In this document: in pieces, positions 3,364 through 14,480 of the stretch | Position numbering within the stretch: position 1 is the first letter of the stretch | Layout of the letters: the number at the start of each line of letters is the position of its first letter | From: a virus | Length of the DNA: 34,057 bases | IMG/VR virus record: IMGVR_UViG_3300023179_000300 | Span: 1-34,057 of that record | Direction: 5' to 3' (one strand) | Notes under the pieces: generated by a model | What the model saw: the letters and a program-made list of their open reading frames with translations, nothing else | The model's database searches: none | What the model was told of the DNA's origin: nothing | Made by a program: the position numbers and the translations under genes

Positions 3364-5808
3364 TTACAATCCTTTAGCTTTACCGCGTTGTGTTTGTTTA
3401 TTTTTATTATTTTTTTTCGTTTCTTGTTCTGCCGTTTCGACAATCGTATCAACATTATCACGGAAATCACTTAACCAATTATCCGCACCTCGTTTTGGAA
3501 TTCCTGTTTCATCAAATCGTTTTGCTAATGTATAGAAACGTCCACCTTTTTGTGGCATATAATCACCAATCATGTTGAATTGCAAAGTAACACCAATTTT
3601 CAATGGTACTTGCATCATAGTTGGATCTTCTTCAATGTTAATTTCCCATGATGCGTCCATTGAATATGCATATGATAACGAAGTTAATACAACGGGCGCT
3701 TGCACAAATATATCACCAACCGTTAAACGCATCCAAGGTGCAATCATTGCAATTGATGCTGGATCATATGTTGGCGAAGTATATCCCATTAATGCATTTA
3801 ATTTTCTCCAAATTGGTTTTACTTCATCTCGATCCGTTGCATATACATCAAATGATACACTCACATCGCGTGACATTCCCGTATATGTATAATTTGGATC
3901 AGCACGGCCAATCATTGTTATGGGAGACCAGTTTGCTGATACGCTATCATCAAAATTTGTGATATGAGCACGAAATACAATAATATCATCTGCATTAGGG
4001 TCATTAATATAATCATCGCCCAATCCTTCGGCTTTGGTTAATCCGTTATGCAATTTTGGTCCAGTTAAATAAAATTTTATAAAGTCTTGAGTTAATGATT
4101 GTTTATCAAATAATTCTAAAGCTCGTTTTGGTTTCCAACGATATGCTTCTTTAAGAGTTCGTTTACCAAAATCAATTACCGTTACTCTATCTCCACGAAA
4201 TGGCGTAGCAAGTTCAAGTGGATTTAGTGTTGGTTTCCAATCTCCTTGATCTATTATTTTTGATTTAAATAATAATTGACCGCTCGTTGGATCTGTTTCT
4301 GTATAACTAAATGCTTTTGGTACTTTGGGCTCCCAACGTGTTGCAACATGACTTCTAGATGTAAAATCATTGCGAAATGCCGATGGATTATCATGATCAC
4401 CCCAACCATATCCAGTATTTGCAAATCCATCTAAATTAAAAACACTGTATGGGCCAATTGGTGTTGCTGCAGCCGCTGCATAAATTTCCGATTTCCATGA
4501 TTTTTCTGGTCCAAACCGGGTTGATGCAGCCAAACCATCAACTCTGCGATTTGTAAAATATGCAATTGTTTGATCGGTAGTTTCGAACGTTGCATTAGTT
4601 TCATTGAATAAATCTCCTTTTGGAAATGTAAATGTAGATCTAAAATCTGGATATTTAATAAATTGTCTAATACCTTGTCGCGTTAAACGATCTTTAGCCA
4701 ATGTTAAATAAGTATTTGTTGAATCAAACATTCCTGCTGCCGTTTGACCAACTTGGCCAATCTGCGGAATTCCGGATATTGAACCTAGTATTGAAGATGC
4801 ATATCCAATTAAATTTCCAACAACACTTTTAGGAGTAATATTGGTGTTGATTCCAACAGCCGTATTAGAATATGGACTTGGTGCATTGTTAGCAGTAAAC
4901 TGCGATATGAATACTGGCGATGTACCAATCGGCATAACTACAAATGTTCCAGGCTGTTCAGCTCCTGGGGCAAACGTATTATTAAGCAGTGTTGGATTGT
5001 TTGTTGATTGGGATAATGCAGCAAGATCTGGTCCGGCGGCTACGATGTTATTAAGAGTCGTAGGAATAAAATCATTGCTAGAAGTATAATTAAATGTTGG
5101 TTCATTGCCTAAAACCGTAGTAGGAGTAAACTGTGTAACACCTACCGTTGGATTGGGTATAAAATCATTGCTAGAAGTATAATTAAATGTTGGTTCATTA
5201 CCTATGAATGCATTTGGAGTAAACTGTGTAACACCTACCGTTGGATTGGGTATAAAATCATTGCTAGAAGTATAATTAAATGTTGGTTCATTGCCTAAAA
5301 CTATAATAGGAGTAAACTGTGGATTTCCGGTCGTTGGATTGGGTATAAAATCATTGCTAGAAGTATAATTAAATGTTAAATTACCTCCTAAATTTAATGA
5401 TTGCGTAAATTGTTGCATTGATGGCAACATGGTATTTGGTGTAATTATGTCATTGGTTGTAACATAATTAAACGTATTAAATTGACCTAGTGTTAATGGT
5501 TGTGCAAATTGTGATGCTGCTGCAACCGTTGCATTTGTATATAATACGTCTGGAAGAATATTATACGTAATGAATTGACCTAAGGTTAATGGTTGCGTAA
5601 ATTGCACAGTTGCAGCTACGGTTGGATTGGTGTATGTTACATCTGGCAAAATATTATACGTGATGAATTGACCTAAGGTTAATGGCGTAGTAAACTGAGA
5701 TAATGCCGTTGTGGTTGGATTGGTATACAATACATCCGGAAGAATATTGTATGGATTATTGAATTGTGCACCGGCTTGTGTGGTTGGATTAATCATGCTG
5801 TTATCCAT
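3364..5808 (-). CDS. Baseplate tail-tube cap/initiator protein with N-terminal repeats, gp48/gp54-like
   Basis: About 814 residues in two unlike parts. Residues about 20-250 are nine tandem 31-residue repeats in two families (YNILPDVLYTNP... and FNYTSSNDFIPNP...). The rest resembles proteins at the tube-baseplate junction of T4-like phages. A globular region contains DRVTVIDFGKRTLKEAYRWK, and the C-terminal part contains SANWSPITMIGRADPNYTY and a YATDRDEVKPIWRKLNALMG segment. It ends in a Lys/Gln/Asn-rich tail. T4 gp48 and gp54 are 364 and 320 residues, so the repeats account for much of the excess. The frame is open to an ATG at 5835. I prefer 5808, which overlaps the tape-measure stop (ATGGATAA); 5796 is also possible. 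The function is inferred from the C-terminal part and gene order. The repeat domain is unexplained. Confidence 0.65.
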   Translation of the reverse strand: MDNSMINPTTQAGAQFNNPYNILPDVLYTNPTTTALSQFTTPLTLGQFITYNILPDVTYTNPTVAATVQFTQPLTLGQFITYNILPDVLYTNATVAAASQFAQPLTLGQFNTFNYVTTNDIITPNTMLPSMQQFTQSLNLGGNLTFNYTSSNDFIPNPTTGNPQFTPIIVLGNEPTFNYTSSNDFIPNPTVGVTQFTPNAFIGNEPTFNYTSSNDFIPNPTVGVTQFTPTTVLGNEPTFNYTSSNDFIPTTLNNIVAAGPDLAALSQSTNNPTLLNNTFAPGAEQPGTFVVMPIGTSPVFISQFTANNAPSPYSNTAVGINTNITPKSVVGNLIGYASSILGSISGIPQIGQVGQTAAGMFDSTNTYLTLAKDRLTRQGIRQFIKYPDFRSTFTFPKGDLFNETNATFETTDQTIAYFTNRRVDGLAASTRFGPEKSWKSEIYAAAAATPIGPYSVFNLDGFANTGYGWGDHDNPSAFRNDFTSRSHVATRWEPKVPKAFSYTETDPTSGQLLFKSKIIDQGDWKPTLNPLELATPFRGDRVTVIDFGKRTLKEAYRWKPKRALELFDKQSLTQDFIKFYLTGPKLHNGLTKAEGLGDDYINDPNADDIIVFRAHITNFDDSVSANWSPITMIGRADPNYTYTGMSRDVSVSFDVYATDRDEVKPIWRKLNALMGYTSPTYDPASIAMIAPWMRLTVGDIFVQAPVVLTSLSYAYSMDASWEINIEEDPTMMQVPLKIGVTLQFNMIGDYMPQKGGRFYTLAKRFDETGIPKRGADNWLSDFRDNVDTIVETAEQETKKNNKNKQTQRGKAKGL
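5062..5751 (-). repeat. Tandem 31-codon (93-bp) repeats coding the N-terminus of the tube-cap protein
   Basis: A conserved DNA block beginning ATAAAATCATTGCTAG (plus strand) recurs at 5066, 5159, 5252 and 5345, exactly 93 bases apart. Three further units between about 5470 and 5751 share the same 31-codon period but a different sequence (YNILPDV... type). One 33-residue unit bridges the two families. The Q-F-T and L-G positions align across all units, so the whole array descends from one repeat. Confidence 0.9.
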
Positions 5809-7429
5809 AATATGAATTTGATAAACCTCGACCAAATACCGGATCAGATTTTAATTCTCTTGTTTGATTGTTGATTGCTGCCACTATGGCTGCGGCCATT
5901 TGCATGACATCTCCACTGCTATTACTAGCATTGCCTTTAAACAAATCGGTGCCACCCATTACTACGTCATTGTTATCGATTGACATAGCGCCATGGGGTC
6001 CTAACAACACGCGTCCTCCGCCTGGGCCGGAATAAAAATCACCCGCATCAGCGTCTACATCCGTTATGACCGGCAGTGGATTGGTTTTGCTGACTTTTTG
6101 GCCCCCTACGCCTACATTGATTACACTTCCGAAAAATGTTTTTAATGCGGTTGTAGTAGTTTCTCCGGCAATTTGGGTCACGGCAGCGATAAGCGTTCCC
6201 GGGGCTGCGGTTTTATAAAAAGAGAATGCTTGTTTGCCCGCTTCTTTGGAAAGATCAATTTGTGCGTTAGATGAACTAACAGCGCTGTTTGCATACGTTG
6301 TACCATACCCCGTAATCATGGCTTTGATTCCTTTGGTGGTCATGATATCGAGTAACTCGACTAATTTTTGATCCGTTGAGCGCACATCTTCTGATGCCAT
6401 AACATCGGCGATTTCGGTGGCCGAAGCTCCCATAGTAGCTAATTTTTGTTCAAGATCTTTGCCAGTTAACCCCATTAACTGGCCAGTTGGATCAAGTTTC
6501 TCTAGTATTTCTTCTTTTTTCAACATTTTAGCTAACGTTGATTCATCCATGTTTAAAAGCTCTGACATTTGTTTTCTTGCAAATGCATTTGTACGCAAAG
6601 TTTTGCCTTCTCGTTTTAAAATTTCATGCATAATTTTGGCTTGATCGTTGGCTTTACCTTGAATTGTAGCCATGCGATATGCATTTGTTAAACTGTTACC
6701 TTGATTGTCAACTAATCGTCGTCCTGAAAGCAATTGATATTCCATTTCTTGACCGATACTAGATTCAATGTTCAACAATCCTTGACCGGTAGTATTTAAT
6801 TGAGCCATATTTATACCAAGCTGTTTGGCTTTTATCACGGCTAATTCTAAATCTGCTGGATATTTGTTGTAATGCAGTGCAATATCTGCAGTTAATGATG
6901 CCAGGTCCTGTATAACATCTTTAGTAATTTCAATTCCGCCAATTTGGTCTTCTATAGCTTTAGTTATATTAACATGATATGCTAACTGTTTATCCATGCC
7001 GCCAACGTTAGAATCATCATACAATTCCATGTATTTATTTGCTAAATCACTAGTGAGTCCCAAATGCATTCTCAAAGTTTTTGAAGTCTTTATCAATACG
7101 TCTTCGTAGGCCGCCGTGGCAGTTTTCGCCTGTCCAAAAGATTTGTTTGATGCAAATATTCCGGTAAGCGATTTCATTCCAATTATTAAAGCTTGCACAG
7201 CATCGCCGCCTGTGCCCAGTTTTTCAGCCAAGTTATCTATATTTTCACCAAAAGCTGCAGCTTGTTCAATTGAAAGTCCAAACGTTTGTTGTAAATCTTT
7301 AAATCTTCGTTCAATGATATCAACGCGGTCAAGTTTAATTTTTTGTATTGCGTTTTGAATGCCCCCGACGGAGCTTTCAATTGCTCGAGATTGGGCTAAG
7401 GCTGTTATGTCTGCAATTAATCCTGGCAT
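5801..7429 (-). CDS. Tape measure protein, gp29-like
   Basis: A 542-residue protein, mostly helical, of the kind that fills the tail tube and sets its length. T4 gp29 is 590 residues, which suggests a tail of about T4 length. The N-terminal half is helical with heptad-like spacing (IQNAIQKIKLDRVDIIERRF, LSIEQAAAFGENIDNLAEKL). Around residues 395-450 it becomes Ala/Thr/Gly-rich and hydrophobic. The C-terminus contains GPGGGRVLLGPHGAMSIDNN followed by DVVMGGTDL, a motif common near the end of phage tape measures. It lies just after the gp26-like gene and its overlapping extension, the usual place for a tape measure. AATAAATAT (plus strand), a near match to the recurring upstream motif, lies 15 bases before its start. 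Confidence 0.8.
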   Translation of the reverse strand: MPGLIADITALAQSRAIESSVGGIQNAIQKIKLDRVDIIERRFKDLQQTFGLSIEQAAAFGENIDNLAEKLGTGGDAVQALIIGMKSLTGIFASNKSFGQAKTATAAYEDVLIKTSKTLRMHLGLTSDLANKYMELYDDSNVGGMDKQLAYHVNITKAIEDQIGGIEITKDVIQDLASLTADIALHYNKYPADLELAVIKAKQLGINMAQLNTTGQGLLNIESSIGQEMEYQLLSGRRLVDNQGNSLTNAYRMATIQGKANDQAKIMHEILKREGKTLRTNAFARKQMSELLNMDESTLAKMLKKEEILEKLDPTGQLMGLTGKDLEQKLATMGASATEIADVMASEDVRSTDQKLVELLDIMTTKGIKAMITGYGTTYANSAVSSSNAQIDLSKEAGKQAFSFYKTAAPGTLIAAVTQIAGETTTTALKTFFGSVINVGVGGQKVSKTNPLPVITDVDADAGDFYSGPGGGRVLLGPHGAMSIDNNDVVMGGTDLFKGNASNSSGDVMQMAAAIVAAINNQTRELKSDPVFGRGLSNSYYG

Positions 7430-7443
7430 TTTATACTTTTAAT

Positions 7444-7452
7444 AATAAATAT
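7444..7452 (-). promoter_or_regulatory. Near match to the ATATTTATA motif before the tape-measure gene
   Basis: On the coding strand the sequence reads ATATTTATTATTAAAAG, one base away from the exact nonamer and with the same A-rich tail. It lies 15 bases before the ATG at 7429, within the spacing range of the exact copies. It may be a weak late promoter. Confidence 0.4.
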
Positions 7453-7688
7453 CAACGTTTGGTTTTTTGTGCATGTTGTTTGTTTTGTTGTTCAATGATG
7501 TTATTGATTTTTTTAATCCAAAAGTTTCTCAAAAATACAGGCATATTGTATACAGTATCCCAGTCCCAACGACCTTCACCAAACCAAATCATGTTGAATA
7601 TAGTTTCGTGTAATTGTATGCGATATGATGAGTTAAAACCAAAAAAGGTTTGACCCAACTGGAAATGTTGTCTTGAAGGTGCTCCCAT
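7452..7688 (-). CDS. Out-of-frame extension of the gp26-like protein (candidate tail-assembly chaperone partner)
   Basis: This short frame overlaps the end of the gp26-like gene by about 56 bases in another frame and ends just before the tape measure. Its core, ETIFNMIWFGEGRWDWDTVY followed by NMPVFLRNFWIKKI, resembles small proteins found after the gp26-like gene in many marine T4-like phages. It could be made in two ways. Initiation could occur at the ATG at 7688, which has AAGG five bases upstream. Alternatively a +1 or -2 frameshift on the six-T run at 7641-7646, just before the upstream stop, would give a fusion like the G/GT pair of siphophages or the -2 frameshift of Mu. The frame stays open beyond 7688 only to a TTG at 7700. 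A one-base homopolymer error in the sequence would also explain the split. Confidence 0.7.
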   Translation of the reverse strand: MGAPSRQHFQLGQTFFGFNSSYRIQLHETIFNMIWFGEGRWDWDTVYNMPVFLRNFWIKKINNIIEQQNKQHAQKTKR

Positions 7689-8394
7689 CTTCACCTTCAA
7701 AATTCATTTCATAGTCAATACCAGGAGCATTATCTTTAACATATTCACGAAATTTTTTTGCATCTCGTGCAAAAAATTCATATCGGATAAATTGATCAAT
7801 TGCAGCTCGATCTCGATTTCCGTTAACTTCTGTAATTAATTTGTTGATTGTTTCAGAAACTGTAGCTTGCGTGATTTCATTTGATGGATATACAAATTTA
7901 ATTGTAGTTTCTGCATTTACTTGATATGTAAATTCTCCATTATTATCTGCTTGTAATACAAATGGTTTGAATTGAATTTCCGTTAAATCAATAGTTCGTT
8001 CAATCATATTACCCGTTTTTGGATCTTGAATTTCAACAGCATATTCCGGTCCATACGCCATAATTCGTGCATTGATAATTAATCCATCTTTATCAACACT
8101 GGAAATTTCATTGATATTAATTGGTGTCATGATGATTGATTCTAACAACTTATCAAAAACGACACCTTCTCGTATGTATGAAACGTTAGTTAAAATATCT
8201 TCGTCATATGCAGTCATGTAACGCATTTCAAGTTGTCCTGAATATAAAGGGTGTGTTTTTGCATATATTTTTCCACCCGAAGCTAATTTTACAATATTGG
8301 ATGGTATTTTGTTTTTTTGTTTGTTTTCGTAGTTTTGCCGTGCAATATTTACTAGATCTTGAGATCCTAATCTTGTTGTGACTTTGTTATCCAT
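7633..8394 (-). CDS. Baseplate hub assembly protein, gp26-like
   Basis: A 253-residue protein resembling the T4 gp26 family of baseplate assembly proteins. Residues about 32-85 (SNIVKLASGGKIYAKTHPLY, then LEMRYMTAYDEDILTNVSYI and GVVFDKLLESIIM) carry the family pattern of a glycine-rich turn, a strand, and a D-E-D-I-L-T segment. A middle segment, INARIMAYGPEYAVEI, is also typical. T4 gp26 is 208 residues. The C-terminus ends in NLFWF, where relatives often end in FFWP, so the in-frame product is probably functional alone. It has a good ribosome site (AAAGGAATAC before the ATG) and follows the tail-tube terminator at 8428-8445. Its end overlaps the extension frame, and the last codons hold a six-T run suited to frameshifting. 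The family call is from sequence character and order. Confidence 0.7.
   Translation of the reverse strand: MDNKVTTRLGSQDLVNIARQNYENKQKNKIPSNIVKLASGGKIYAKTHPLYSGQLEMRYMTAYDEDILTNVSYIREGVVFDKLLESIIMTPININEISSVDKDGLIINARIMAYGPEYAVEIQDPKTGNMIERTIDLTEIQFKPFVLQADNNGEFTYQVNAETTIKFVYPSNEITQATVSETINKLITEVNGNRDRAAIDQFIRYEFFARDAKKFREYVKDNAPGIDYEMNFEGEDGSTFKTTFPVGSNLFWF
7639..7648 (-). other. Candidate frameshift site CCTTTTTTGG
   Basis: The coding strand reads AAC CTT TTT TGG TTT TAA in the gp26-like frame. A +1 slip of the TTT codon, or a -2 slip, enters the frame GGT TTT AAC TCA, which continues for about 60 codons through the conserved-looking extension. The stop lies two codons after the run, so the shift must happen here or shortly before. 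Confidence 0.5.
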
Positions 8395-8450: not shown

Positions 8451-8972
8451 TTAGAAGCTTAAGAATGCCCAATCATAACGTACTGTTATTGAAATTTCTT
8501 GAACTGCGTCTGCGCCCCAATCATAAGTACCAAATTCGGCATCTGTTAAAAATGCACCATTTAATGTCCATTCTTCTACTGTTTCACCCAATGGCGAAAG
8601 TTGAGATAATTTGATTTGTTTTTTGTAAAAAGATGAATACCCATCTCGTCCTGTTGATGATTCATGATGTAAACGAATCCATTCCATTACTGCTTGTGCA
8701 CCCGATGGAACAATTGGATCATATAGTGTCATCTGTATGGTACTCCATTCGGATTTTCCTTTGACATATCGTTTAATGTTGATTAAATCTAACGGAACTT
8801 CACCGTTACTAATTTGTGGTTTACCGGATGTTTTTACTAAATATGCCGGAATATCCGGAATAGCTAATATAAAATGATGTTGTCTTTTTGGTTCCCACGA
8901 AAATGCTTTATCAAATAATTGATCTTGATTGGCAACCGTTAAAGCAGGATTTATATTATCATATAATGCCAT
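8451..8972 (-). CDS. Tail tube protein, gp19-like
   Basis: A 173-residue protein, close to the 163 residues of T4 gp19, that should polymerise into the inner tail tube. It has the expected beta-rich character: FSWEPKRQHHFILAIPDIPA near the N-terminus, EWSTIQMTLYDPIVPSGAQA in the middle, and a C-terminal strand pair ending VQEISITVRYDWAFLSF. It sits directly after the sheath gene, as in T4. It is set up as its own transcription unit: a terminator at 9012-9042 and an ATATTTATA motif at 8994-9002 lie upstream, and a UUCG hairpin follows its stop. The ribosome site AAGAAGGAAC is among the strongest in the window. This fits a protein needed in very many copies. Confidence 0.88.
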   Translation of the reverse strand: MALYDNINPALTVANQDQLFDKAFSWEPKRQHHFILAIPDIPAYLVKTSGKPQISNGEVPLDLINIKRYVKGKSEWSTIQMTLYDPIVPSGAQAVMEWIRLHHESSTGRDGYSSFYKKQIKLSQLSPLGETVEEWTLNGAFLTDAEFGTYDWGADAVQEISITVRYDWAFLSF

Positions 8973-9060: not shown

Positions 9061-11571
9061 TTAAAATGCAGCACCCGTTGGTTGAATGTTAAAGTCTAAT
9101 ACAATAAATTCAGCGGTTCGAGTTGGTTGCAAAAATATTTGTCCGTACAATATATTTTGATCAATTAAATCTGGTGTATTGTTTTTATCATCCATAACAA
9201 CTCGGAATGCATATAAACCTTGTTGTATGCGTACTGATTCCATATACGGATTAACAATTGCCAAAAATTTATTTCGTGTTTCTACTGAATTTTGTTCGAA
9301 TACCAAAAATCTTGTAGATGATGCAATAAACTTTTTAACTGCAATAAGTAATCGCCTAACATTGATTCGATCTAATGCACTTGGACGTGCTTGCAATGTC
9401 TTTTGTCCCCAAACGACAATACCTCCGTTTTGTCCACCAAAATTAGCAATAGGATTAACACGACCTTGATACAATGCATCTCTGTCTGCTTGTGCTAATG
9501 ATACTTTAGTTCCAATTGCAGAAACAACGCCTCTACTTAAACCAGCCGGGGCAAACCACGGAGCTTGTGTTTTATCATTAAATGCAATTACATTTGGCAA
9601 TAAAACCGATGGTGGTACAAATATTTGTGCACCCGTAGCCGTATTTGTTGTGCTTAACCATGGCCAATATACTGCTGTATAATTAGTATCCAATGTTACT
9701 ACTTGCTGAGTAACTGTTGCAATAGAATCATTGATTGCATTTGAATCCATTATGTAAAATGTGTCTTGGCGAGTTTCACATAAATTTCTTGCTAATGAAG
9801 TAGCAGATGAATGCAAACTATCAATAAGACCTGGAGTTACAAGCAAATTCATATCATAATAATCAGTATTGCTCAATACTAAAAACGCCTTATTGTATGA
9901 TTTAGTACCAGTAGATGTAGATGTTTGACAATCAAATCCGTAAGTGTTATTTGATGTAATGTATTCTCCTCGGTATTTTGGTAAGTTTGGACGAGCTCCA
10001 TCAAACCCACCTTGAAATGGCACCATAAATTTTCGAGTTGATAATTTAACATTGGTAATGAATGTTGAATTTGTCAATGCAGCTTGCAATGATCCAGTAT
10101 ATGGTGTAATTGCATCTGGATAATTAGATGCTGTTGCTTGAAGTACATCACCTAAATAAAAGTCTGTCGAACTACCTGTATTTGATCCTGATGTTGGAAT
10201 TGGTGTTAAATAGTTCATGTTAGTTGCAGTTGTATAATCAAATCCATGAAAATTTGTTCCTGAATATACTCCATTAACTAATTGCGTACTTCTATATGAT
10301 GCAGCTGGTAATGCTAAACTTCCCGAAACCAATGGCGTTGGTGCATTTGGTGAACGAAATCCAAATGGAATCAACGTTTTGTCAATAATTTTGTTTCTAA
10401 CATCTTCGGATACTTCTACTCGTATAAAATTGTTGTTTGTAGGATAACTACCATTAAAAAATACTTGTCCATTATCATTAACGGTTTGATAGCTATCACC
10501 AATTACGCGAGCAATATATTTAGGAGAATCTGGATTCAAATTAACTTCCCACTCTTGAATAATATCTGGTTGTGCATCGGTATCTTGAGATGCATATGGT
10601 GATCCAGGAATTCCTGGACTTAATGTATTGACTCGTCGAAGTTGAACTACAAATGTACCATATTGATCGGCAGGCCCTAATTCCGTACCCGTTCCCGATG
10701 TTCCTGGAGCTAATTTGATGTCTTTAATTCCAATTTTAACTTCGTGACTAACTGAAGTACCGTGTGATAATGTATGAAATTTAAATAAATTAGTTGCAGA
10801 ATTTCCTACTAACTGCGATGTAATCCATGGTGTTGATGCTACATTGTAATCTTGTAAAAATTCATAGTTGTTAATAATTTGTAATGATGCTGTAACTTTA
10901 GTAATATCCGCAAATTCTTGCCAAAGCTTTTTAGCTTCATATTGTACATATACTGGATAATTTGATGATGCCGGACTTGTACCTAACACTGCGCCAATAT
11001 ATTGATTTGATGAATCAACAATTGAACAAGAAATTCCAGTTGATGTATTTGATAAAAATGAACCATCAAATCCAATAGCCGAATCTTGTGGTGCAGAATA
11101 TGAACCAGAAATAACCAATGAAAAAGATCCATTGTTTAACGCAGTATTGTATGATACAGATGATGATGCAAACAATGATCCAGCTAATCCGTTTGTAGTT
11201 ACTGGACGAGTTGGGTGTAATATATGTGATACTTTTTTAACTAATGTTAATCCAGAACCTGATTCTACAACGATTGCTAATGCACCTTGATTTAAATAAT
11301 AACCATCTTCATACAAGATTCTTGTTACTGTAATTGTTTCACCATTTTTTAAATAATCTTCAACTACCATGGGTACATAATAATCATCTGCAGTATTTGT
11401 TCCAAATATTTGATTGAATTGTGTAATATTTGTTATTTTCGTTGGTACTAGTGCCGGGCCTTTTACAGTTGGGCCAACAACTGCAGCACCAATAGTTCGT
11501 ATTCCTTGTGCTAAAAATGATTGATCGATCTCTCTGGTAAATACTCCAGGCGATACTATTCTTTCTGCCAT
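9061..11571 (-). CDS. Tail sheath protein, gp18-like
   Basis: An 836-residue contractile sheath protein. The N-terminus (RIVSPGVFTREIDQSFLAQG, then GAAVVGPTVKGPALVPTKIT) is the standard start of phage sheath proteins. The C-terminal domain contains WGQKTLQARPSALDRINVRR followed by LLIAVKKF, and ends in FLQPTRTAEFIVLDFNIQPT, the region that locks sheath subunits together and to the tube. T4 gp18 is 659 residues, so the extra 180 or so probably form surface domains in the Ser/Thr/Asn-rich middle (residues about 120-480). The ribosome site is strong (TTAGGAGACATAA before ATG). An ATATTTATA motif lies 22 bases upstream of the start, and a terminator follows. The position before the tube gene agrees with T4 order. 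Confidence 0.93.
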   Translation of the reverse strand: MAERIVSPGVFTREIDQSFLAQGIRTIGAAVVGPTVKGPALVPTKITNITQFNQIFGTNTADDYYVPMVVEDYLKNGETITVTRILYEDGYYLNQGALAIVVESGSGLTLVKKVSHILHPTRPVTTNGLAGSLFASSSVSYNTALNNGSFSLVISGSYSAPQDSAIGFDGSFLSNTSTGISCSIVDSSNQYIGAVLGTSPASSNYPVYVQYEAKKLWQEFADITKVTASLQIINNYEFLQDYNVASTPWITSQLVGNSATNLFKFHTLSHGTSVSHEVKIGIKDIKLAPGTSGTGTELGPADQYGTFVVQLRRVNTLSPGIPGSPYASQDTDAQPDIIQEWEVNLNPDSPKYIARVIGDSYQTVNDNGQVFFNGSYPTNNNFIRVEVSEDVRNKIIDKTLIPFGFRSPNAPTPLVSGSLALPAASYRSTQLVNGVYSGTNFHGFDYTTATNMNYLTPIPTSGSNTGSSTDFYLGDVLQATASNYPDAITPYTGSLQAALTNSTFITNVKLSTRKFMVPFQGGFDGARPNLPKYRGEYITSNNTYGFDCQTSTSTGTKSYNKAFLVLSNTDYYDMNLLVTPGLIDSLHSSATSLARNLCETRQDTFYIMDSNAINDSIATVTQQVVTLDTNYTAVYWPWLSTTNTATGAQIFVPPSVLLPNVIAFNDKTQAPWFAPAGLSRGVVSAIGTKVSLAQADRDALYQGRVNPIANFGGQNGGIVVWGQKTLQARPSALDRINVRRLLIAVKKFIASSTRFLVFEQNSVETRNKFLAIVNPYMESVRIQQGLYAFRVVMDDKNNTPDLIDQNILYGQIFLQPTRTAEFIVLDFNIQPTGAAF

Positions 11572-12176: not shown

Positions 12177-14480
12177 TTATGTTATTAAATTTATAATTGA
12201 AAATACTAAATTATCAAATCCATTCCCTACACCATTAAACCCTAATGATCCAGCATTAAAGGATGTATCTAAAACACCGTTTGTATTAAGTTTTGCAATA
12301 TAACCTGCTGTTGAACTGCTATACGCAGTAAATGCATTTCCAATATAAACTGCATTATTTTTATCTAAACTTATAGCGTTATTTGCAAGAGTTCCCCAAG
12401 CGTTTGGTCCTAAATTTGCACCTTGACCAGGTATCCAGCTTGTATTTCTACTTCCATTAGAATTTATTCGCACAAAACGGCTTACTGTTGAGCCTGAGTA
12501 TGTAGTAAATACTCCTGCTGCTAGTATAGTTCCATCGGCTAACAATTTAAGGTTGTATATGCCTCCGTTATTACTACCAGGTTGAAATGTAGTATCTAAA
12601 GTACCATTAGTATTTATGCGAGCTAAACGATTTATGTTAGATCCAGAGTATGTTGTAAAATCTCCTGAAATTAAAATTTTACCATCAGATTGTCCTGTAA
12701 TAGCGTATGCTGTGGTATTAAAACCGGTTCCTATATTAAAAGTTGCATCTTGAGTTCCGTCTGTATTAATACGTACTATTCTATTAACACTAGATCCACT
12801 ATATGCTGTAGTTGCTCCTATTGCTATGATTTTTCCATCGGATTGCAGAGCTAATTGATGGATATTTCCAGTACTTCCTACTCCTACATTAAATGTATTG
12901 TCTTTTGTTCCGTTAGTGTTGATGCGCACAATACCACTATTTGTTGAACCCGAGTATGTTGTAAATGCACCTGCAGCAACAATTTTTCCATCAGGTTGAA
13001 CTTTCATATCATACGCAACCCCATTAAGTCCTGTTCCTGAATTAAATGTAGCATCACGAGTTCCGTCGGTGTTTAATCGAATAATTCGATTTTGTGTTGA
13101 ACCAGAATATGATGTAAATGCTCCACCTGCAATTATTTTACCATCAGATTGAGTTGCCATTGTATAAACGGTGTTATCAAATCCGGCACCCATGTTAAAT
13201 GTCGTATCTATGGATCCTGTGTTATCTAATTTAATAATGCGATTGTATCTAGGTGCATCATATGACAAAAATGCTCCAGCTGCATACAACTTACTACCTG
13301 ATACAAGACTTGTATAAACAAAGTTATTAAATCCTCTGGTTGATTGACCGTTGTATCCTATACTTCCAGTATTGAATGTTGTGTCAATTGCACCACTATT
13401 GTTTGTTTTAACAAAATAATTAACAGTTGATCCTGAGTAAGTTGTAAATCCATTGCCTAAATACATATTGCCCGATGTATCCAACGAAATATAAGATGAA
13501 AAATTAGCAACTACAAAGCTTAATCCTGTACCTACATTAAATGATGCGTCTCGATTTCCGTTGGGCATCGCTCTAACAATTCTAGTGGATGTTGACCCGC
13601 TATAACTACCAAATTCTCCATATGCTATAATTTTTTGATCGGGTTGTATTTTTATGCCATAAACTGAAGAATTAGGGGTTCCTGGGTTAAACGTGGTATC
13701 TAAAGTGCCATCGGTATTTATGCGAGCTAAACGATTTATGTTAGAACCACTATATGTAGTAAATCCTCCTCCCATAACATATTTACCATCAGATTGAATA
13801 TCGATTGCAAATATTGCGCCTGCTCCGGTACCGGCAAATCCAACCCCAGCATTGAACGTAGTGTCTCTAGTACCATCGGTATTAATTCTAAATGATCCGG
13901 TAGGAGCAACTGATCCTGAATATTGAGTTACCCCATTTGAACCTACAATGATCTTTCCATTGGATTGAATTGTTACGCAATTTAGTTGTGTTGTTGATCC
14001 AACACCAGTATTAAATGTAGCATCACGAGTTCCGTCGGTGTTTAATCGAATAATTCGATTTTGTGTTGAACCAGAATATGATGTAAATGCTCCAACTGCA
14101 ATAATTTTACCGTCTGATTGTACTGCTATACCAAGTACGGTATTATTAAATCCTGTTCCTACATTAAATGTAGCGTCTCTAGTTCCGTCGGTGTTTATTC
14201 TTGTTATATACGCACTGTTTGAACCACTATACGTAGTGAATATCCCTCCCACAATTATTTTACCATCGGATTGGGTTGCCATTGTATAAACGGTGTTATT
14301 GAATCCGGTACCCATGTTAAATGTTGTATCTACAGATCCGGATAAATCCATGCGTAATATTCTAGTATAAAATGGTGGTTTATATAAACTAAATGTGCCA
14401 GCTACATACATATAATCTGGAACTGCAGGAATTAAAATTCCAGGAACATATGGTTGTATAAATGCAAAAGGCGTAAACAT
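12177..14480 (-). CDS. Tail-associated double beta-propeller protein (delta-60-type repeats), probable host-binding protein
   Basis: A 767-residue protein made almost wholly of 14 repeats of about 50-55 residues. Each has the core QSDGKIIxGGxFTTYSGS, then NRIxRINTDGTxDxTFN and a variable loop. This matches the delta-60 repeat class known from bacterial secreted proteins, which folds as beta-propeller blades. Repeats 1-7 and 8-14 correspond one to one: 1 and 8 share the odd proline-containing blade start, 5 and 12 share SGSNINRLARIN, and 7 and 14 share the NG-rich insert. The simplest reading is two seven-bladed propellers from one duplication. It lies directly after the fibre gene with three bases between, and has no signal peptide, as expected of a virion part. 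Host binding is inferred from fold and context. Confidence 0.75.
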   Translation of the reverse strand: MFTPFAFIQPYVPGILIPAVPDYMYVAGTFSLYKPPFYTRILRMDLSGSVDTTFNMGTGFNNTVYTMATQSDGKIIVGGIFTTYSGSNSAYITRINTDGTRDATFNVGTGFNNTVLGIAVQSDGKIIAVGAFTSYSGSTQNRIIRLNTDGTRDATFNTGVGSTTQLNCVTIQSNGKIIVGSNGVTQYSGSVAPTGSFRINTDGTRDTTFNAGVGFAGTGAGAIFAIDIQSDGKYVMGGGFTTYSGSNINRLARINTDGTLDTTFNPGTPNSSVYGIKIQPDQKIIAYGEFGSYSGSTSTRIVRAMPNGNRDASFNVGTGLSFVVANFSSYISLDTSGNMYLGNGFTTYSGSTVNYFVKTNNSGAIDTTFNTGSIGYNGQSTRGFNNFVYTSLVSGSKLYAAGAFLSYDAPRYNRIIKLDNTGSIDTTFNMGAGFDNTVYTMATQSDGKIIAGGAFTSYSGSTQNRIIRLNTDGTRDATFNSGTGLNGVAYDMKVQPDGKIVAAGAFTTYSGSTNSGIVRINTNGTKDNTFNVGVGSTGNIHQLALQSDGKIIAIGATTAYSGSSVNRIVRINTDGTQDATFNIGTGFNTTAYAITGQSDGKILISGDFTTYSGSNINRLARINTNGTLDTTFQPGSNNGGIYNLKLLADGTILAAGVFTTYSGSTVSRFVRINSNGSRNTSWIPGQGANLGPNAWGTLANNAISLDKNNAVYIGNAFTAYSSSTAGYIAKLNTNGVLDTSFNAGSLGFNGVGNGFDNLVFSIINLIT
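13041..13125 (-). repeat. 85-bp perfect direct repeat, copy in blade 9
   Basis: The stretch is identical, base for base, to 14010-14094, which lies in blade 3 of the same gene. The copies are 969 bases apart, or six blades, not seven, so they are out of register with the duplication of the two propellers. Confidence 0.85.
14010..14094 (-). repeat. 85-bp perfect direct repeat, copy in blade 3
   Basis: This is the partner of 13041-13125. Both encode the segment SGSTQNRIIRLNTDGTRDAT and its flanks. Perfect identity including silent positions points to recent exchange between blades. Confidence 0.85.

Follow-up and report, generated by a model that had tools for sequence, protein, structure and literature searches.

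A tail assembly chaperone probably made in two forms by +1 ribosomal frameshifting in a freshwater phage, with a covarying upstream RNA hairpin

The stretch of DNA analyzed here (34,057 nucleotides, referred to as the window) belongs to a 34-kb virus record of a freshwater phage of the contractile tail type. On its minus strand lies a gene, ORF1, that very probably encodes a tail assembly chaperone (TAC) in two forms, a short TAC-N and a long TAC-NC, the latter produced by a +1 frameshift at CUU-UUU-UGG. The proposal draws on the conservation of the slip site and of the frame reached by it, on the colinearity of the predicted product with a cyanophage fusion, and on the structural matches of the N-terminal domain to chaperones. 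The conserved slip site, the fusion frame, the lack of separate initiation in some members and the homology with gp26/gp51 of T4 all come from sequence comparison. A sequence-only reading of the window had suggested that programmed frameshifting adds an extension to the C terminus of a gp26-like protein, a suggestion that the comparative data support.

Organization of the locus

The minus strand of the window displays the order of a contractile-tail operon: tail sheath, tail tube, ORF1, an overlapping second frame and a 542-aa gene (Table 1). The coding strand reads CCTTTTTTGG at 7648-7639, so that ORF1 ends in CTT TTT TGG TTT TAA. The two overlapping frames and the slippery run close to the first stop that had been pointed out previously are indeed present, and a slip of +1 (or -2), as anticipated, leads into the second frame and yields a 313-aa protein devoid of internal stops. 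The extension had also been described as proximal to the tape measure. Gene order agrees with this description and the equivalent large gene of the phage immuto is annotated as tape measure, but the product of 5801-7429 matches nothing in pfam or phrogs, tape-measure families included; the term thus refers to gene order only.

Table 1. Coordinates of the features discussed in the text (positions in the window)
Feature	Position	Strand	Remarks
ORF1, putative short form (gp26-like, TAC-N)	7633..8394	-	253 aa, ATG start
ORF1 stop UAA, which the +1 slip would bypass	7633..7635	-	sequence
Candidate slip site C UUU UUU GG; codons CUU UUU UGG	7639..7647	-	P-site UUU would re-pair +1 on UUU
Second (+1) frame	open from 7703, stop at 7454-7452	-	overlaps the end of ORF1
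C-terminal extension (gp51-tail-like), +1 frame	7452..7643	-	~63 codons past the slip; conserved FFGF..YR..LHE..GRWDW..YNMP..R
RNA hairpin GAAGGUG-(10 nt)-CACCUUC	7675..7698	-	inside ORF1; pairing and compensatory changes
+1-frame ATG, candidate independent start (alternative explanation)	7686..7688	-	also GTG at 7694
Tail tube protein gene, upstream	8451..8972	-	phrog_4542 tail tube, E 1.4e-23
Downstream gene, 542 aa, tape-measure position	5801..7429	-	begins 22 bases past ORF2

Other features of the tail region can be mentioned here. The tail sheath protein (9061-11571, minus strand, 836 aa) is matched by phrog_23, a profile of 496 positions, over residues 2-836, and seems to carry a large insertion relative to it. 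Farther along, 12177-14480 (minus strand) encodes a 767-aa protein with 14 DUF5122 beta-propeller repeats (PF17164, E 4e-146). A second frameshift was considered between 5801-7429 and 3364-5835, which overlap at 5801-5835, and was discarded because in most close relatives the first stop is followed within a few bases by an ordinary ATG. A search of a plasmid collection gave no match.

Conservation of the slip site and of the extension

A scan of viral contigs retrieved 345 stretches encoding ORF1 relatives, 80 of which were retained as loci. The survey of the slip site covers 93 related loci, near-copies included, and the statistics on close relatives refer to 59 dereplicated loci. The sequence [C/T]TT [T/C]TT TGG is found in 87 of the 93, distributed as 62 loci with CTT TTT TGG, 20 with TTT TTT TGG and five with CTT as the second codon, the remaining six having other sequences; re-pairing in +1 is possible in every one of the 93. 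Among the 59 close relatives the six Ts, the GG and the next TTT are almost invariant. In the same set synonymous differences drop to 0.00 over the last four codons, compared with 0.16-0.26 in codons 5-24 and 0.31-0.48 farther upstream. In essentially all complete loci this T run lies at the end of ORF1 and a +1 frame overlaps the gene there, an arrangement that, together with the slip site, recurs in loci with only ~30% identity in ORF1. Identical geometry is displayed by the Microcystis phage Mel-JY01, the Flavobacterium phage immuto, SP-15, LIS04, GXN1 and the 484-kb genome LR756508, as well as by metagenome contigs whose bins carry the labels of widely different hosts, many of these contigs having TTT TTT TGG CCT. 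Neither a single continuous gene nor a pair of well-spaced genes lacking a slippery run was seen in this lineage.

Conservation also extends past the slip. The +1 translation from this point onward follows the pattern FFGF....R..LHE..F..IW.GEGRW.W..YNMP..LR, and over the first 15 codons its mean pairwise identity is 0.52 versus 0.30 and 0.34 in the other two frames, in line with the earlier impression that the second-frame protein is conserved. A weak match links the extension to phrog_18291. The stretch 7452-7700 (minus strand) also matches DUF6760 weakly (E 0.01, below the cut-off), a possible distant link. In public genomes the extension is listed in several instances (L002, L004, L116, L198 and L205) as a separate short gene with a late internal ATG. 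Annotations of this kind include SP15_046 of SP-15, 232 of immuto, gp51 of S-PM2, gp157 of pf16 and that of MA10, and the long form is thus left unannotated.

Frameshifting or separate initiation

It could be argued that the extension is a separate small protein, initiated at the ATG at 7688 or at the GTG at 7694 and translationally coupled to ORF1, with no frameshift involved. The ATG at 7688 noted in the sequence-only reading does exist, the +1 frame being open well ahead of the slip in the window, and an ATG at the corresponding place is present in 43 of the 59 relatives and a GTG in 58; the frequency of the ATG, however, is close to that expected from the use of GAT/AAT codons in ORF1. Conservation of the +1 frame upstream of the slip does not discriminate between explanations in the window family (0.55 versus 0.58 for ORF1), whereas in cyanophages it does (0.34 versus 0.64). 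A further observation comes from eight relatives (L055, L077, L078, L209, L210, L211, L215 and L216, with L077 and L078 being near-copies) that have no ATG, GTG or TTG in the +1 frame between its last stop and the slip and yet keep an intact extension, which must consequently be reached from ORF1 in these loci. In L050, L055 and L077 a stop lies between such starts and the slip. Moreover, the slip codons are frozen, with zero synonymous change, and the cyanophage and T4 homologues are fusions to the same N-terminal protein. Independent initiation as the sole source of the extension is accordingly improbable, with an additional separate product being possible in the window and in the many close relatives where ATG or GTG precedes it.

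Direction and position of the slip

The frame reached by the +1 slip can equally be entered by a -2 slip, which would add one more Phe (LFFGF instead of LFGF). The sequence-only reading had left both directions open; the change of frame stands, and +1 is favored over -2 by re-pairing in divergent members. Slips of -2 are known in tail chaperone genes (Mu) and UUU UUU would re-pair perfectly in most members of the family, but such a slip would face a middle-base mismatch in L213 and GXN1 and, as placed, a two-base mismatch in LR756508 and LIS04, while the +1 slip pairs in all loci. A -2 shift is for this reason given only a small chance.

The slip might also take place one step later, at UUU-UAA, as a release factor 2-like shift on the stop codon. 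The UUU ahead of the stop is found in 57 of the 59 window-family members, but in L026 and L035 it has been lost whereas the T run has been kept, and distant members carry AAG, GTA, GAC or GAG at this position, making a shift on the stop codon slightly less credible still than one of -2. Finally, homopolymers are prone to error, but a sequencing or assembly mistake in the T run, dividing what would really be a single gene, is ruled out, for practical purposes, by recurrence in ~90 related loci from different samples and in genomes of named phages; a T count of 6 or 7 with an identical split is seen in dozens of independent contigs and complete phage genomes.

Relationship to T4 and cyanophage proteins

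At the protein level, ORF1 matches PF12322 (T4_baseplate; E 5e-9, 36.6 bits, passing the curated cut-off of 24.5) and phrog_150 (baseplate hub; E 4e-9). T4 gp26 (208 aa) and gp51 (249 aa) both belong to PF12322 and phrog_150, with gp51 extending to the end of the profile and gp26 stopping short. In the cyanophage S-PM2 a single profile covers gp26 and then continues in the -1 frame, annotated as a small gp51. The classic -1 heptamer, T TTT TTC, closes gp26 in all 56 distinct cyanophage loci. The two slip codons show zero synonymous change compared with ~0.5 around them, and 21 of the 56 loci lack any start codon close to the junction from which the -1 frame could be translated. The -1 arrangement is also found in pf16, Ps15, phi-pp2 (KVP40 type), LG08, AsFcp_1 and MA10. 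Local folding points to a stem-loop past the cyanophage gp26 stop, with a mean z of -2.56 against 0.3 to -1.0 in controls (single-sequence folding), whereas RNAalifold found no consensus structure in the cyanophage alignment. Among the loci L117-L196, many show a stem-loop a few nucleotides past the gp26 stop, of up to 12 bp in some subclades, at the position expected for a -1 stimulator.

Profile comparisons connect these proteins with each other. The cyanophage fusion aligns with T4 gp51 colinearly from end to end (99.1%), and its extension alone gives 97.9%. The window-family fusion is in turn colinear with the cyanophage fusion across the junction (hhalign, 92.2%, E 6e-7, a score reached by 0 of 25 column shuffles), and the SP-15 group matches the window family at 99.9%. 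Five profile comparisons were checked with column-shuffled controls, none of which reached the observed score. When the window extension is set directly against T4 gp51 the match is not significant (2.8%), and the link between them runs through the cyanophages.

Structure models are consistent with a chaperone. The AF2 models of ORF1 and of a cyanophage gp26 have pLDDT values of 88.9 and 89.0, respectively. Residues 30-115 of the ORF1 model match YqbN (3KLU), which we take to be a TAC, with Z 6.1 and the HK97 tail assembly chaperone (2OB9) with Z 5.9, the next match in the PDB having 2.5; the top PDB matches of the cyanophage gp26 model are 3FGX (7.3) and 3KLU (6.9). TAC structures thus rank first for both of these independent models. 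Plain Foldseek against the PDB gave no significant match for the ORF1 model, and matched it to the models of SP-15 and T4-type gp26. With Z values under 8, these models argue with moderate strength for a TAC fold in the N-terminal domain.

RNA hairpins around the slip site

The drop in synonymous change ahead of the slip falls together with a potential RNA hairpin whose end lies ~27-28 nt upstream of the slip site. Across 38 sequences pairing reaches 98.5% of the cells of the hairpin, compared with 41-53% in slid controls. Changes on both sides affect 3 of its 7 pairs (shuffled mean 0.3, with 0 of 500 shuffles as high), the compensatory variants being GAAAGUG/CACUUUC, GAAGGCG/CGCCUUC and one end pair. 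Furthermore, the GGU codon inside the hairpin is used by 56 of the 59 relatives against a background use of 0.37, and the local folding energy is low (mean z -2.24). This upstream hairpin may tune the slip. Judging from the usual footprint of the ribosome, its distance from the slip site seems too great for contact with a ribosome that pauses there. No conserved purine stretch resembling a Shine-Dalgarno sequence was seen by eye directly upstream of the slip in alignment A5. A hairpin ending ~4-6 nt before the slip can also form immediately ahead of TTTTTTTGG in several of the distant +1 members among L207-L217 (L209, L210, L213 and L214 are examples), with weak support on average (mean z -0.9).

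Copy number and evolution

Of the 55 proteins placed in a tree, the 24 from the +1 group fall on one side of a branch with support 100/99; gp26/gp51 genes of T4 type make up a single group (99/97) inside the other side, the remainder of which is -1. T4-type phages have two copies of the gp26/gp51 family, and +1 and -1 phages have one. The window, a fragment, holds one copy, as do the full-genome +1 phages, apart from SP-15, where a further hit is weak and distant (E 0.03). The two-gene arrangement, in which the long form comes from its own gene, was not found in the window or in +1 phages; it was not seen in the related lineage and is present in T4 and its close relatives, a separate clade. 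It is conceivable that a frameshift common to the entire +1 clade makes the long chaperone under the control of the covarying upstream hairpin, instead of a downstream structure or a Shine-Dalgarno stretch, and that the family switched direction or exchanged frameshifting for gene duplication, a tentative scenario to which we give rather less than an even chance.

Proposed mechanism and significance

From these comparisons we infer that slipping occurs, at some rate and by a +1 mechanism, that the products act as chaperones and that the hairpin may have a part in it. Most ribosomes would terminate at the UAA at 7635 and release the 253-aa short form. A fraction of them would slip +1 at CUU-UUU-UGG: with UGG still unread in the A site, the P-site tRNA-Phe could shift its pairing from one UUU to the UUU that overlaps it. 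Reading would then resume at GGU UUU AAC and yield, from CUUUUUUGG, a fusion product, the 313-aa long form with its gp51-tail-like end. If the locus works like lambda gpG/gpGT, the tape measure protein would be coated by the short form and tail tube subunits would be recruited through the extension carried by the long one, in which case the rate of slipping would set the ratio between the two forms.

Frameshifting in tail chaperone genes sets the protein ratio needed for building long tails. The existence of +1, -1 and two-gene solutions within one family constitutes a natural experiment, suggesting that what is conserved is the pair of products and their ratio and not the mechanism that provides them. 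At a practical level, the analysis corrects the annotation of several public genomes that list the extension as a late-starting short protein or miss it, and the upstream hairpin would represent a testable new kind of +1 control element.

Comparison with known systems

Tail assembly chaperones of the lambda gpG/gpGT type were reportedly described by Xu, Hendrix and Duda in 2004. The locus of the window shares with lambda gpG/gpGT and with SPP1 the gene order past the tail tube, the short and frameshift-extended forms (predicted ones in the window) and, by model comparison, the fold; it differs from them in that no sequence similarity is detected, in its +1 direction and in the T4-type contractile tail. 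As to the slip itself, the +1 frameshift site of release factor 2 is CUU UGA. Both sites have in common a P-site YUU that would slip onto UUU with a slow A site, a re-pairing available throughout the surveyed loci. Unlike release factor 2, the window has UGG and not a stop in the A site, and a hairpin upstream instead of a Shine-Dalgarno stretch.

Among phages, SPP1 gp17.5/17.5* employs a -1 slip at UUUUUUC (PMC6316719), and a two-gene tail chaperonin was noted earlier in phage 0305phi8-36 (PMC2147016). The passages of PMC10885494 and PMC12846349 that deal with T4-like phages credit the identification of their TACs to Vladimirov, Gautam and Davidson (2022, Virology 566:9-15); the former mentions that some of these phages have a short gene together with a long fused one, and the latter poly-T -1 signals in their TAC-N genes. 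With T4-like TACs, the -1 slip and the two-gene form all reported earlier, the kind of system is already known. Neither a +1 clade nor the upstream hairpin turned up in a search of open papers; the apparent novelty lies in this hairpin and in a separate clade with slipping in the +1 direction.

Phage 0305phi8-36 and T4 gp26 plus gp51 resemble the present locus in having short and long forms with a common domain, but there the two forms come from paralogous genes without frameshifting. The closest parallel is provided by T4-like gp26/gp51 and cyanophage TAC-N/TAC-NC, which belong to the same family (PF12322/phrog_150) and have short and long forms with the same junction point, a poly-U slip site being common to the frameshifting members. 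They differ in the way the long form would be reached: +1 at CUU/UUU-UUU-UGG in the window, -1 at U-UUU-UUC in cyanophages and KVP40-type phages, and two genes in T4.
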